Assembly (NCBI GenBank): GCA_023150055.1
Contig: JAKLLP010000145.1
Span: 1-5,875, forward strand
Source: Gammaproteobacteria bacterium
GTDB taxonomy: Bacteria; Pseudomonadota; Gammaproteobacteria; Steroidobacterales; GCA-2729495
Direction: 5' to 3'
DNA length: 5,875 nt
Shown piece after piece: positions 179-5,875 of the stretch (the stretch's first letter is position 1; each line of letters opens with the position of its first letter). The notes below the pieces were generated by a model. It was not told the DNA's origin, did not search any database, and saw only the letters and a program-made list of their open reading frames with translations. Position numbers and translations under genes: made by a program.

Positions 179-787
179 TCAGCCGCGGCGCCGGCGCCAG
201 AACCCGGCCAGGCCGAAGCCGGTGGCGGCGAGCCACGCGGTCGCCGGAAGTGGCACGGCTCCGACCGTCACGCCGTTGTAGGTGAAGCCGTCGATCGGCT
301 GACCGCCCATGGTGATGAACCCGCCAAACGAGCTACTGGGCACTACCGACACCGCTCCAGGGGAGCCTGACATCTGCGGCGCCAGTATGTTTCCTAGCAG
401 GATCAGCCCCGTGATGCCGGCTTCTGCGCCGATGTAGACTTCCAGGTCCGCTGTGCTGGCCTGGTTCACTGGCGGCCCGTAACCAGTGTACGGGCTGTCG
501 TCCGGGTCGGAATCGGCATCAGGGCCATCCGGAAGGGTGTTGAGGCTGTCGAACTGGGCCGAGGGCAAAAAGGCCGAGTTCGTCAACACGCCGCTGAAGG
601 TCAGCTCCACGCCACCACCCTGGGAAAGGACATTCTCCAGATCCAGGTAAAGGCTGAGATTGACGATGGTCGGCAATACCGACGGGGCAATCGACGACGG
701 CGTGATGTAGAAGGATGCAGCCTGCCCGTTGCCCGCGATGAGCGCCGCGGCAGCCGCAATCAGGTAGCGCTTTACTGAAGAGTGCAT
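179..787 (-). CDS. VPLPA-CTERM sorting-domain protein with cohesin-like body
   Basis: A 202-residue exported protein. Residues 1-23 form a signal peptide (charged start, alanine-rich core, likely cleavage after GQA). The C-terminus is a textbook exosortase sorting signal: VPLPA at 178-182, a hydrophobic segment at about 183-197, then RRRR at 198-201. In known systems an exosortase cleaves this tripartite tail and the protein is delivered to the envelope or extracellular matrix; no exosortase gene is in this window. The mature body (about 25-175) is beta-rich and glycine-rich. Its pattern (a VNLSLYLDL strand, GGGVELTF, SAFLPS, then GITGLILLGNI and GGF) resembles cohesin-like domains of other PEP-CTERM proteins, but this is judged by eye. 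An acidic stretch at 87-97 might bind calcium. The start ATG at 785-787 has a GGGGGAT element about 6 nt upstream. The gene is transcribed away from the dockerin-bearing gene at 1174. Confidence 0.85.
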   Translation of the reverse strand: MHSSVKRYLIAAAAALIAGNGQAASFYITPSSIAPSVLPTIVNLSLYLDLENVLSQGGGVELTFSGVLTNSAFLPSAQFDSLNTLPDGPDADSDPDDSPYTGYGPPVNQASTADLEVYIGAEAGITGLILLGNILAPQMSGSPGAVSVVPSSSFGGFITMGGQPIDGFTYNGVTVGAVPLPATAWLAATGFGLAGFWRRRRG

Positions 788-873
788 GGACGATCCCCCA
801 GCGATCTGTTTTTCTTGCCTTGATGCCTTATTGGTTCCTGGTGGGCGTCAGAGGACGGTGGAGTCGCCCCAGG

Positions 874-891
874 CCAGCAATCAATTGCTGG
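874..891. promoter_or_regulatory. Perfect inverted repeat, candidate operator
   Basis: CCAGCAATCAATTGCTGG has perfect 8-bp arms around a 2-bp centre. The size and symmetry suit a dimeric DNA-binding regulator, and it sits about 87 bp upstream of the minus-strand start codon. The regulator is unknown and no homologous sites are visible in the window. Confidence 0.4.
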
Positions 892-927
892 TCAAACGCT
901 AACGCAATCGTGTGCTGACTGCAATTC

Positions 928-943
928 ACATTGGACTCAATGT
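928..943. promoter_or_regulatory. Second inverted repeat in divergent region
   Basis: ACATTGGACTCAATGT has perfect 6-bp arms around a 4-bp spacer. Its centre is 53 bp from the centre of the inverted repeat at 874-891, about five helical turns. The arm sequence differs from the first repeat, so if both are binding sites they probably serve different proteins. Confidence 0.3.
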
Positions 944-1157
944 TAAAGAAACGGAGCGAAACGCCGGTAGCTATTAACATAAAACACCCCCACGTACCCC
1001 TCGGCCTGAATAACGCCACAGCGAGTACCCCACATTTGGGGCTGCACTTTCAGGGGGGGCGCCGCGACTCGAGTCCGGCAGCAGGTCGTTGCAACAGGCT
1101 TGTCAGTCCGCCTGCAATTCCAGACAGTGTCGGCCTGCCCTCATCGAATTCGCGAAC

Positions 1158-1169
1158 AGGAACCAGGAA
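1158..1169 (+). promoter_or_regulatory. Ribosome binding site fixing the start at 1174
   Basis: Two AGGAA elements lie at 1158-1162 and 1165-1169, 11 and 4 nt before the ATG at 1174. Neither spacing is ideal, but together with the signal peptide that begins at this ATG they favour it over the earlier in-frame TTG (931) and ATG (940). Confidence 0.55.
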
Positions 1170-1173
1170 TCGT

Positions 1174-2943
1174 ATGCCGGCTAAATCGCATCCAACCCAC
1201 GCTGCAGGCGCCGCATGGCTAGGCTTGGCTATCGCGGTCATACCGCTCGCAGCGCTCGCGTCCTACAGGGACGACGTCGGCTACACGGCGCTTCGGGCCG
1301 AACTCGGTGCTGCGGCGATGCCGACCGGCGCCGACGTGCCAGTCGCGCAGATCGAGGCGCCCGTCGATGTCGGGGGCCAGGACACATGGATGCCCAACCC
1401 CTCTAGCGCGGAATTTGCCGGCAAGATCATCACAGACTCAACGGCGCCGCCCGCGCCGGTCGGCGTCTTTTCGAGTCACGCCACCAGCGTCGGGCGAAAA
1501 TTTTTCGGTCTCACCAGCTCAGTTGCCGCAGGCATAACGAGTATCGGCGTGTACTCTGCCGAGGGATGGCTCGGCGGGGACTTTCTCCAGGCGGGCATGG
1601 GCGCACGGCCGCTATCTTCCGGCATGCGCATTGGCAATCACAGCTGGGTCGGCGATACCAATGACGCCGGCATCAACTCCGAAGTGTTACGCCGGCTGGA
1701 CTGGGTGATCGAGACCGACGATTTCCTTCAGGTCGTAGCGATGAACAACGGCGCCGGCGCCAGCAACGTCGCCCTGCTCTGCAGTGGCTTCAACTCCATC
1801 GCCGTCGGCCGCAGCGATCTCGGACACCGGATCGGCACCGTTGCGATCGACGCGACTTACAGTGCGGGCCGGGTACGACCTCACCTGGTGTTCCCGGCAG
1901 AAAACACGAGTTCCACCAGCGCCTACCTGGCCTCGCTGTCGGCGCTCCTGGTGGAAACGGGACACGCTAACGCCGCCTTGTCGACCGATCCTGCGATCAA
2001 CAGCTACACCAACCGTGCCGGTTCGTTGATCCGCAATGCCGAGCGCGTGGAAGTGGTCAAGGCCGCGCTGATGGCGGGTGCCGATCGCGTCACTCGCAAT
2101 TCGACCTTGGGCAATCTCGACCGTTACCGGGGCCAGGCCTCGTTTCAGTCCGCCAACGGGCTCGATACCCGCTACGGCGCGGGCCAGGCCAACATTCGCA
2201 ATAGCTACTGGATCATCACGGCCGGCGAGCAGAACAGCACCGAGGATGGCGGCGTCGGCGGCGCGGAACGCGGCTTCGACTACGATCCGGAATTCGGCGG
2301 GAGCAGCGGATCGAACGCTACGGCCACCTACCCTCTGCCGCTGTCGTCCGTGCCGCGACTGCTTACCGCGACGCTCGCCTGGAACATCGACATCAATGGC
2401 GGCACGTCCTTGAGTTTCAACGGCGCCTCGACGCTACGCGATCTCGCCCTCGCGGTGATCGACACCGCCACATCGGCCACGGTAACAGGCTCACAAGACA
2501 CCAGCGACAACACCGAGAACATTTATGTCGTGGTGCCCGCCAATGCCGAGTATGCGCTGCGTGTGTCCCGCGGCTCCGGCGCGTCGTTCCGCTACGACTA
2601 CGGCCTCGCATGGCAACTCCTGCCTGATGCCGATGCCGACGGGGCCCACGACGGCCAGGACAACTGCCTTGACATCGCCAATGGCCCGCTCGCCCCCGAC
2701 AGCGGTGGCAACAGTCAGCGCGACACGGATGGCGATGGCTTCGGTAACGCCTGCGATGGCGATTTCGACAACAGCGGCGGCATCGTCAATTTCGCGGACC
2801 TCGCCTACTTCCGTGGCGTGTTCGGCACGGCCACAGCGGATGCCGACCTCGACGGCAGCGGTGGCATCGTCAACTTCACGGACCTCGCGCTGTTCCGGGC
2901 GATGTTCGGCAAGGCGCCGGGGCCCTCCGCGCACGCGCCGTAG
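1174..2943 (+). CDS. Secreted subtilisin-like protein with TSP3-like repeats and C-terminal dockerin
   Basis: A 589-residue protein from the ATG at 1174. Residues 1-29 form a signal peptide (hydrophobic core about 14-28). Residues about 55-350 show a subtilase (S8) pattern: VAQIEAP at 57-63 in the place of the Asp motif, SSHATSVG at 100-107 for the His motif (His102), AMNNG at 189-193 for the oxyanion Asn region, NSIAVG at 207-212, and NTSSTSAYLAS at 244-254 for the Ser motif (Ser246). The catalytic Asp appears to be Glu61 and the Ser motif has lost its Gly and Pro, so activity is uncertain. Residues about 395-481 look like the beta-sandwich (PPC-like) domain often found after subtilases. Residues 485-530 hold aspartate-rich thrombospondin type 3-like calcium repeats with two cysteines (498, 527). 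Residues 530-579 are two dockerin-like repeats, followed by a short KAPGPS tail. No sorting signal or membrane anchor is present at the C-terminus. It is transcribed divergently from the VPLPA-CTERM gene, a plausible anchoring partner. Confidence 0.8.
   Translation: MPAKSHPTHAAGAAWLGLAIAVIPLAALASYRDDVGYTALRAELGAAAMPTGADVPVAQIEAPVDVGGQDTWMPNPSSAEFAGKIITDSTAPPAPVGVFSSHATSVGRKFFGLTSSVAAGITSIGVYSAEGWLGGDFLQAGMGARPLSSGMRIGNHSWVGDTNDAGINSEVLRRLDWVIETDDFLQVVAMNNGAGASNVALLCSGFNSIAVGRSDLGHRIGTVAIDATYSAGRVRPHLVFPAENTSSTSAYLASLSALLVETGHANAALSTDPAINSYTNRAGSLIRNAERVEVVKAALMAGADRVTRNSTLGNLDRYRGQASFQSANGLDTRYGAGQANIRNSYWIITAGEQNSTEDGGVGGAERGFDYDPEFGGSSGSNATATYPLPLSSVPRLLTATLAWNIDINGGTSLSFNGASTLRDLALAVIDTATSATVTGSQDTSDNTENIYVVVPANAEYALRVSRGSGASFRYDYGLAWQLLPDADADGAHDGQDNCLDIANGPLAPDSGGNSQRDTDGDGFGNACDGDFDNSGGIVNFADLAYFRGVFGTATADADLDGSGGIVNFTDLALFRAMFGKAPGPSAHAP
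2761..2910 (+). repeat. Duplicated dockerin-like calcium-binding repeats (coding)
   Basis: Two 22-codon units at 2761-2826 and 2845-2910 are offset by 84 nt (28 residues). Both read D-x-D-x-S-G-G-I-V-N-F-x-D-L, then end in a helix with FR and MFG or VFG. This is the type I dockerin arrangement of two F-hand calcium loop-helix units. They are also clearly similar at DNA level, consistent with an internal duplication. Each loop is one residue longer than the usual 12-residue pattern because of the S-G-G step. Confidence 0.8.
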
Positions 2944-3709: not shown

Positions 3710-5875
3710 TTATCGCACCCGCCGCCTCAGGGCGGGCAAGCCCGGCGAGGGCGTGCGGCGCGCGGTGTGCTCCAGCGCTTCGGCCATGCCGGCCACGGTG
3801 GGGTTTTCGAACAGTGCGAGGAGCGGCAGCTCCACGGCGAAGGCATCGCGCACCCGGGCGATCAGCCGCGTGGCCAGCAGCGAGTGCCCGCCGAGCACGA
3901 AGAAGTCGTCGTGCACCCCCACCGACTCGCGTCCGAGCAGCCCCGACCAGATCTCGCACAAGCGCCGCTCGCTCTCCCCGCGCGGCAGCGTGGCGCCCGC
4001 TGCCACCGCCCGCGGCGCCGGCAACGCCGCCTCGTCGAGCTTGCCGTTCGCCCGCCGCGGCAACGCACCGAGCCACACGAACGCCGCCGGGACGAGCGAC
4101 TCCGGCAGCCGCGCACGCAGGCCCGCGCGCAGCTCCGCCTCCGCCATGAGCGCGCCACCCCCGGTCTCGGCCAGGTACGCCACCAGCGTGCTCTCCCCGG
4201 CTGCATCGGCGCGCGCCATGACCGCGCACTCCACCCCGGGCAGCAGCGCCCCGAGCGCCGCCTCCACCTCCGCCGGCTCGATGCGGATCCCGCGGATCTT
4301 CACCTGCCGGTCGCACCGTCCCTCGTGCAGCAGCTCACCACCGGGCAGCCGCCGCACCAGATCCCCCGTGCGCAGCAGCACCCGCCCGTCGGGCAGACGG
4401 CGCAGCCGCCGGCGCGTCAGTTCGGCATCGCCGTGATACCCGGGCGTCAGGTACTCGCCCACCAGCCCGAGCTCCCCGCGCCACGCTGAGACATCCGGCT
4501 CGCCCTGCTCGTCGAGCAGCCACGCCTCCAGCCCGGCCACCGCCGCGCCCACCGGCAGCCCCTCGCCCACCACCCGCGTGTCGTGATCGGCGCAGAACTG
4601 CAGACCCATCGTGCTCTCGGTGAGACCCAGCCCGTTCACCAGCCGCGCACCGCGCCGGAACCGCAGCCGGAACAGCTCCAGGTCCGAGCGCCGCGCCCGC
4701 TCTCCGCCCAGCACCACCAGCCTTACTGCGCTCAAGTCTTGTGTGCACGTCACCCGCCCGCCGAACAGGTGCCGGTACACCGTCGGCGTGAAGTGCAACA
4801 CGCTCACCCGCTCGGCCGCGATGCGGTCGATCAGCTCCGGCGCCGACTCCGCCCCGCGCAGGTCATACAGGTGCACGCTCGCCCCCGTGAGCAACGCACC
4901 GAACAGGTCCTGCACCGCCGCGTCATAACCGTAGCCGGCAAACAGACTCAGCCGGTCGGACTCCACGAGACCGAGCGAGCGCGACCACAGCCCCACCTGG
5001 CCGAGCACGTGGCGATGACTCTGCACCACCCCTTTGGGCGCCCCCGTCGTCCCCGAGGTGTAAAGAAGATAAGCCTCCTGGTCGGGGGCGACTGCCGGCG
5101 CCACTGTTGTCATTGCTAACGACGTCGCCGTCGCCCCGATCGACTCATCGACCACGATCAGCGGCAGCGCGCAGCCCTCCAGCCACGGCGCCCGCTCACG
5201 CCGCGCGCGGTCCGTCACCACCGCCACAACACCCGCATCGATCAGCACCTGCCGATTGCGCGCCTCCGGCGCGTAAGCATCGAGCGGCACGTAGCTTCGC
5301 CCCGCGAGCACCGCACCGAGCAGTCCTGCCACCATCCACTCGTCATGACCGAGCAGCAGACCCACCCGGCCACTGCCCGCACCGGCCCCCGTGGCGATCC
5401 CCGCCGCCACCGCCTGTCCATACCCGAGCAGCTGCGCGTAGCTCCAGCTCCCGCCCGCAAATCCCACCGCCTGCGCTTCACCGCGCCGGCGCCCCTGCGC
5501 CACAAGCCGATCTCCCAGCGAACCCTCGACATCCAAGGGCAGCGGCTGTCGGGCACGGGCCTCACGCCGCTGTTGCGCCTGGTGGTCCCGCGAGTCTGCG
5601 TCCAGCACCGCGAGCTGGCCCACGCGCAGGCCGGCGTCCTCGCCCACCTCGTGCAGCACACTCAGGTAACCGCCGAGCAATGCCTCCATCGTCGCGGCAT
5701 CAAACAGGTCGGCGTCGTACTCGAACATCAGCCCGATGCCGCCGGCCTGCTCGACCACGCTCGCGGTGAGATCGAACTTCGCCGTCCTGCGTGGCGCGGC
5801 GATGCGCGAAGCGGACAGCTCGCCCAGCGCGAGCCGTTGTGCGGGTTCGCTGTGGAAATTGAACATGACCTGGAA
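3710..5875 (-). CDS. Nonribosomal peptide synthetase, C-terminal part (C-A-PCP), 5' end outside window
   Basis: The frame is open to the window edge; the ATG at 5866 is internal, preceded by in-frame F-Q-V, a continuing condensation-domain strand. Counting that Met as residue 1, residues 1-75 are the end of a condensation domain (AKFDLTASV, then YDADLFDAATM). Residues about 115-615 are an adenylation domain with its core motifs in order: A1 WSYAQL 141-146, A2 AGRSYVPLD 188-196, A3 YTSGTTGAPKG 269-279, A4 GYDAAVQDLF 313-322, A5 NGLGLTES 411-418 (a variant of NxYGPTE), A6 GELGLVGEYLTPGY 464-477, A7 RTGDL 499-503, A8 GRCDRQVKIRG 516-526, A9 LPESLVP 587-593, and A10 NGKLD 607-611. Residues about 630-700 are a carrier domain; LGGHS at 658-662 holds Ser662 (codon 3881-3883), the phosphopantetheine site. 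The protein stops about 18 residues later with no thioesterase, reductase, epimerase or further condensation domain. It activates an amino acid and extends a peptide from an upstream donor; the substrate is not assigned. Confidence 0.95.
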   Translation of the reverse strand, partial: FQVMFNFHSEPAQRLALGELSASRIAAPRRTAKFDLTASVVEQAGGIGLMFEYDADLFDAATMEALLGGYLSVLHEVGEDAGLRVGQLAVLDADSRDHQAQQRREARARQPLPLDVEGSLGDRLVAQGRRRGEAQAVGFAGGSWSYAQLLGYGQAVAAGIATGAGAGSGRVGLLLGHDEWMVAGLLGAVLAGRSYVPLDAYAPEARNRQVLIDAGVVAVVTDRARRERAPWLEGCALPLIVVDESIGATATSLAMTTVAPAVAPDQEAYLLYTSGTTGAPKGVVQSHRHVLGQVGLWSRSLGLVESDRLSLFAGYGYDAAVQDLFGALLTGASVHLYDLRGAESAPELIDRIAAERVSVLHFTPTVYRHLFGGRVTCTQDLSAVRLVVLGGERARRSDLELFRLRFRRGARLVNGLGLTESTMGLQFCADHDTRVVGEGLPVGAAVAGLEAWLLDEQGEPDVSAWRGELGLVGEYLTPGYHGDAELTRRRLRRLPDGRVLLRTGDLVRRLPGGELLHEGRCDRQVKIRGIRIEPAEVEAALGALLPGVECAVMARADAAGESTLVAYLAETGGGALMAEAELRAGLRARLPESLVPAAFVWLGALPRRANGKLDEAALPAPRAVAAGATLPRGESERRLCEIWSGLLGRESVGVHDDFFVLGGHSLLATRLIARVRDAFAVELPLLALFENPTVAGMAEALEHTARRTPSPGLPALRRRVR

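Follow-up and report, generated by a model that had tools for sequence, protein, structure and literature searches.

How a protein that ends in a dockerin finds a partner outside a cellulosome is the question raised by contig JAKLLP010000145.1, a stretch of 5,875 nt from a gammaproteobacterium that was analysed at its full length and is called the window here. It is contig C50 of the source genome G000 (2.65 Mb, 73% complete) and holds two divergent genes, encoding a 202-residue VPLPA-CTERM protein and a 589-residue dockerin-bearing subtilase-like protein (Table 1). Full-length homologues exist for each, which shows that both open reading frames (ORFs) are real genes. The original prediction, made from the sequence alone, was that the first protein could be the surface receptor of the second, as a dedicated minimal pair. 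Our analysis indicates that the VPLPA-CTERM protein is probably a surface docking port, serving its neighbour and further dockerin proteins made by that cell.

The VPLPA-CTERM protein has a signal-peptide-like start, a body of about 150 residues and the tail AVPLPATAWLAATGFGLAGFWRRRRG. The predicted model gives this body a cohesin jelly-roll fold: its fold matches pointed to a cohesin, which bears out the cohesin-like strand pattern noticed earlier. The cohesin signal was visible by structure only; searches of PDB sequences with the single sequence and with a profile returned only hits ascribable to chance, namely Elongator (E 1.8) and mucin-1 (E 0.68), which were discarded. Since the Pfam cohesin family PF00963 does not match the body, we filed it as a cohesin-fold variant outside that family.

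The exosortase sorting tail claimed for this protein was found with its VPLPA motif, hydrophobic helix and basic end. V178, P179, L180, P181 and A182 were invariant in 7 aligned rows (window included), and the model contained helices at residues 2-18 and 182-201. Scores lay just under the cut-offs, at 20.2 bits against PF07589 (E 0.0006; cut-off 20.7) for the window tail and 25.3 bits against TIGR03370 (cut-off 25.35) for the homologue P0127. Two exosortases were detected in the source genome, XrtD (TIGR04152, 546 bits, cut-off 400) and XrtB (412 bits), and an exosortase was present in all 8 clade-bearing genomes among 40 genomes searched. XrtD is the VPLPA-CTERM-specific exosortase by its family name (TIGR04152); from this name and the tail, we infer that XrtD would process the window tail and fix the cohesin at the envelope.

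The 589-residue protein ends in two dockerin loops, DFDNSGGIVNFADLAYF and DLDGSGGIVNFTDLALF, as had been read from the plus strand, and stops 7 residues after the dockerin, in agreement with the earlier remark that it has no anchor of its own. The two calcium-loop and helix segments that define a dockerin span residues 528-582, with predicted helices at 540-549 and 568-577. A family profile of 68 rows (window included) matched the solved dockerins 2y3n (E 3.4e-6) and 1daq (E 1e-4), and its best dockerin row was 8x39, named 'Serine protease' (E 5.4e-7). The A5 dockerin profile, of which the window itself is a row, scored 99.9 bits at 2758-2940. As a single sequence the protein was not matched by PF00404 (Dockerin_1), Pfam reporting TSP_3 only, and NF041540 gave 15.9 bits against a cut-off of 29; PF00404 was present on a number of its homologues. 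A tail of the form PPGPSGxxP is conserved after the second loop in most A5 dockerins and might belong to the interface.

We searched 147 genomes, the source genome included, with the A3 profile and took 96 loci from the matches listed, 52 full-length and 44 tail-only, the latter hand-picked down the list; 3 of the 16 A3 matches in the source genome were examined (the window protein, one sister-clade member and one tail-only match). Flanks were scored with hidden Markov models (HMMs) of the cohesin body (A3 body, E≤1e-3) and of the dockerin, vicinity being set at 5 kb. A dockerin lay within this distance at 18/21 body-positive and 4/75 body-negative loci (Fisher 6e-13). The body threshold was carried over from an earlier comparison, by which time the surroundings of the 16 top-scoring rows (14 near a dockerin) were already known; among five further body-positive rows, scored unseen, four had a dockerin near, in one case within the cohesin frame itself. 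The bodies of G007 and G009 are identical, and G032 and G037 each contributed two hits from one locus; the count after merging was 15/18, and in one of the 15 (G088) cohesin body and dockerin share an ORF. Dockerins occurred in 18/18 body-bearing genomes and 17/129 others, counts that rest on the 96 loci, so weak clade members may be missed. In a tree of the 52 bodies the window fell into a group of 13 members with full support, and dockerin neighbours were present for 11 of them. Thus the cohesin clade and dockerin genes are linked, and the pairing that the original prediction wanted to see in related genomes is conserved. Of the conditions named as refuting that prediction, the two examined, a fold unrelated to cohesin and a pairing not conserved, did not come true, and the receptor reading is supported.

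Farther away, at the class level, the body profile (E≤1e-5) matched 8/369 genomes, own included, and in a phylum sample of 398 it matched the source genome alone. Outside the order, four of eight hits in seven genomes lay within 8 kb of a dockerin (G239, 0.5 kb; G357:C42, 2.9 kb; G236, 7.6 kb; G314, 7.7 kb), in genomes holding one to five dockerins. The G167 hit sits on a 3-kb contig, too short to show dockerin vicinity; the frames of G314 and G167 leave their contigs, with the tails outside the sequence, and the G244 body protein has a membrane anchor of a different type at its end.

Such a link could also arise if the body had a structural role in the envelope or in an exopolymer and bound no dockerin, its vicinity to dockerins reflecting islands of surface-protein genes. 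PEP/VPLPA-CTERM proteins are numerous, with up to 22 scored matches per genome, and the tree contains a well-supported sister group of 24 with a related body, linked to the window clade by weak HMM matches, a tail of the same kind and no dockerin neighbours (0/24). The same zero argues against gene islands, as does the count in the 18 body-bearing genomes themselves, where body-negative loci were near a dockerin in 1/37 cases against 18/21 (Fisher 5e-11); the recurrence of the link outside the order points the same way. We regard this explanation as unlikely. Because the sister clade also lives in genomes with no dockerin hit, such a body alone does not predict dockerin binding, and linkage does. 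A looser criterion, taking any full-length A3 match as a cohesin, placed 21/52 near a dockerin and was dropped because it mixed in this second clade, which has no dockerin neighbours and which the tree separates. At least 24 family genomes carry the sister clade; the source genome has its own member, L103 (G000:C221:4735-5298), and the member of G001 scored 20.4 bits against PF00963, below the cut-off of 24.1.

If the cohesin does bind dockerins, the divergent subtilase-like protein might be its sole partner, a private pair of enzyme and receptor. The divergent arrangement is shared by the window, G007, G009 and G025, which fits this. However, the cohesin adjoins other dockerin proteins in G037, G038, G057, G078, G021, G011 and G032, and the close subtilase relatives in G035, G037 and G038 lie on contigs other than that of the cohesin. 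Dockerin matches numbered four in the source genome and eight in the complete genome G007, with one detected clade cohesin each; in family genomes carrying the clade, the loci examined yielded one or two clade cohesins, and dockerins numbered one to eight. A domain scan covered ten of the dockerin proteins from G000 and G007; they included sugar-dehydrogenase-like, M64-peptidase-like, NHL-propeller, copper-amine-oxidase-like and CEMIP/G8 proteins, the rest showing linker or unknown domains only. In other genomes the cohesins had Ig-repeat proteins, S8 subtilases (G057, G078, G021) and a CotH protein (G011) nearby. The notion of a dedicated minimal pair did not survive, since the same cohesin clade adjoins several different dockerin proteins, and a private pair is unlikely. 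In its place a broadened form, an exosortase-anchored cohesin port for many dockerin clients, is likely.

Two natural ORFs, in G032 (1992 residues) and G088, unite a cohesin body with a dockerin, as adaptor scaffoldins also do in one chain; neither frame gave a VPLPA tail match. At G032:C29 (L062, 2695-16535) a VPLPA cohesin, three dockerin genes and the 1992-residue frame are clustered.

In type I dockerins the residues right after the loop Asn decide the choice of cohesin. The first of these residues is aromatic here: both loops read N-[FY]-x-D in 34/36 dockerins sampled from ten clade-bearing family genomes, one loop having G for N, and in 2/15 dockerins from five genomes without the clade. 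The [FY] signature was common to all four dockerins of the source genome and all eight of G007, which also speaks against a private pair. The sample took 4/6 dockerins of G016, 8/20 of G023 and 2/3 of G038, with the other named genomes in full; it excluded the dockerins of G014, G026, G030 and G031 as well as G009, which is a twin of G007. Because related sequences are not independent, we use this pattern as supporting evidence only.

Several observations weigh against a docking port. The body has 8-14% identity to solved cohesins; PF00963 gave no match to the window protein at E≤1, and all 21 body loci were likewise without one. No dockerin lay within 5 kb at 3/21 body loci (G035:C39, G021:C30, G043:C12); outside the order, G267 and G244 had a cohesin hit and no dockerin hit, and G357:C28, a second hit, had no dockerin nearby. 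The sister clade is found in 8 genomes with no dockerin hit (G001, G003-G006, G017, G028, G029). As to the contact residues, the [FY] rule fails in both G008 dockerins. Two genomes, G016 and G023, supply 12 of the 15 dockerins that represent genomes without the clade; the 2 exceptions among the 15 are from the incomplete genomes G034 (87%) and G039 (70%). Finally, 17 genomes have dockerins and no detected clade body, G097 and G067 holding 34-39, and the clade genomes G057, G070 and G088 also hold Pfam-type cohesins elsewhere.

These last two facts indicate that other receptors exist. The dockerins might have a different partner, either a cohesin that escaped detection or an envelope polymer, the VPLPA cohesin catching the dockerins of other proteins or none. 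The 17 genomes point to other receptors or other dockerin roles, Pfam-type cohesins were matched in 8/147 genomes (7 over cut-off), and in G023 divergent cohesin-like genes adjoin a dockerin of another type. Against this, though weakly because the genome is 73% complete, PF00963 detected no cohesin anywhere in G000 at E≤1e-3, where three of the 16 A3 matches were examined. We consider this alternative unlikely. At the G023 locus (G023:C18, L200, 2192-4641) a gene for an N-A-Q-D dockerin precedes a tandem pair of divergent cohesin-like VPLPA/PEP-CTERM genes (20.5 and 19.1 bits), in a genome of 20 dockerins. They were not counted as clade members and may represent another kind of receptor, suited to another kind of dockerin.

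For the docking port, the following scheme is proposed. We infer that the cohesin protein and the subtilase-like dockerin protein are both exported; XrtD would then cleave the VPLPA tail and fix the cohesin at the envelope. Secreted, anchorless dockerin proteins, the window neighbour among them, would be caught through a calcium-dependent cohesin-dockerin contact. One port could so hold several clients (sugar-dehydrogenase-like, M64-peptidase-like, NHL-propeller, subtilase-like), a display system unlike the cellulosome. More generally, and with less assurance, we favour the view that exosortase-sorted cohesins are a general Gram-negative port, in which a single VPLPA cohesin, anchored through XrtD, would present all secreted dockerin proteins of the cell (eight clients in the complete genome), with dockerin contact residues co-evolving with the cohesin clade. 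This would be a modular, calcium-dependent enzyme display unrelated to cellulose.

Anchoring scaffoldins of cellulosomes are attached by sortase or S-layer homology (SLH) anchoring in Gram-positive cellulose degraders. What sets the window cohesin apart from such scaffoldins (an example is Ruminococcus flavefaciens ScaE, 2zf9) is an exosortase-type tail; the source genome shares XrtD and the VPLPA tail with the XrtD/VPLPA-CTERM system (TIGR04152, TIGR03370). No glycoside hydrolase catalytic family (E≤1e-3) was found in the ten G000 and G007 dockerin proteins; no search was directed at scaffoldins or carbohydrate-binding modules, and the source genome is 73% complete. A 2009 review by Peer et al. 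is said to treat non-cellulosomal cohesin-dockerin modules. Our literature search returned no paper that connects VPLPA- or PEP-CTERM proteins to a cohesin or dockerin; mention by Peer et al. or in the exosortase paper of Haft et al. is possible. Many organisms that lack cellulosomes have dockerins and cohesins. Their function there is called not known (PMC5244752) and their implications unclear (PMC9012536); archaeal ones are described as binding each other (PMC5244752, PMC9012536). For anaerobic methanotrophic (ANME) archaea, PMC9012536 mentions dockerin and exosortase in separate contexts. Compared with non-cellulosomal cohesins of Archaeoglobus (2xdh) and of ANME archaea (PMC9012536), the window cohesin has a bacterial exosortase tail; its group is unseen by PF00963, and its dockerin link was counted over many genomes. 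The 'planctosome' proposed for freshwater Planctomycetes (PMC6461901) is likewise a hypothetical cohesin-dockerin display of peptidases at the cell surface, with TSP3 repeats. There, a 2,210-residue anchoring protein with a lamin-tail domain tether and an adaptor is involved, whereas the window has a 202-residue single cohesin, VPLPA-CTERM and XrtD. What is gained is a concrete receptor group missed by sequence profiles. With receptor, likely anchor, sorting enzyme and clients named, the non-cellulosomal function reduces to a simple binding test. If true, the scheme would give a group of small VPLPA-CTERM proteins their first molecular role and provide a Gram-negative surface-display module of practical use.

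The subtilase-like protein had 750 homologues at E≤1e-3 and is predicted to have a subtilase fold, the match to KP-43 reaching residue 482. At the triad positions the 68-row alignment had E61 in 68/68, H102 in 67/68 and S246 in 67/68 rows (codons 1354-1356, 1477-1479 and 1909-1911), so that the Asp-His-Ser triad of peptidase S8 is replaced by one with Glu at the catalytic Asp position. The equivalence is based on predicted strand 57-61, which ends at E61; in hhalign a true S8 protein aligned to the family at the Ser motif only. Because the fold fits S8 and the catalytic Asp position is Glu, we use the name 'subtilase-like', and the earlier wording 'peptidase-like' was apt. This is an apparent Asp-to-Glu subtilase family. 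It differs from KP-43-type subtilases (1wmd; SubHal, 5fax) by this Glu, by the TSP3-like linker that precedes the dockerin and by the dockerin itself.

Table 1. Coordinates of the features of the divergent pair in the window.
Feature	Positions	Strand	Basis
VPLPA-CTERM protein, 202 residues, predicted cohesin-fold surface receptor	179..787 (incl. stop)	-	ORF list, homologues, model, fold matches
Putative signal peptide, residues 1-24	716..787	-	sequence; model helix 2-18
Predicted cohesin-fold body, residues 25-176	260..715	-	predicted model
VPLPA-CTERM sorting tail, residues 177-202	182..259	-	PF07589 E 0.0006; invariant VPLPA; XrtD in genome
Divergent intergenic region common to both genes	788..1173	.	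promoter scan: no sigma-70-like site found
Dockerin-bearing subtilase-like protein, 589 residues	1174..2943 (incl. stop)	+	ORF list; 750 homologues E≤1e-3; model
Predicted subtilase-fold domain, ~residues 28-350; E61, H102, S246 at triad positions	1255..2223	+	
C-terminal beta-sandwich as in KP-43, ~residues 366-484	2269..2625	+	model strands; KP-43 match to residue 482
TSP3-like linker, ~residues 485-527	2626..2754	+	PF02412 (TSP_3) E 0.0096; thrombospondin matches of family profile
Dockerin, residues 528-582, loops N-F-A-D and N-F-T-D	2755..2919	+	family profile vs solved dockerins; A5 profile
End of conserved post-dockerin tail, family consensus PPGPSGxxP	2920..2940	+	

Downstream of the pair lie a GTP cyclohydrolase I gene and part of a nonribosomal peptide synthetase (NRPS) module, with a condensation end, adenylation and carrier domains at 3710-5875 on the minus strand, open at the contig edge. 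No connection between these genes and the pair was noticed, and no search aimed at one was made. At the other edge, positions 6-62 hold three tandem 19-bp copies of GGTAGCACCTTGTGGGAGA, the third with one mismatch, where 0 were expected in shuffles.
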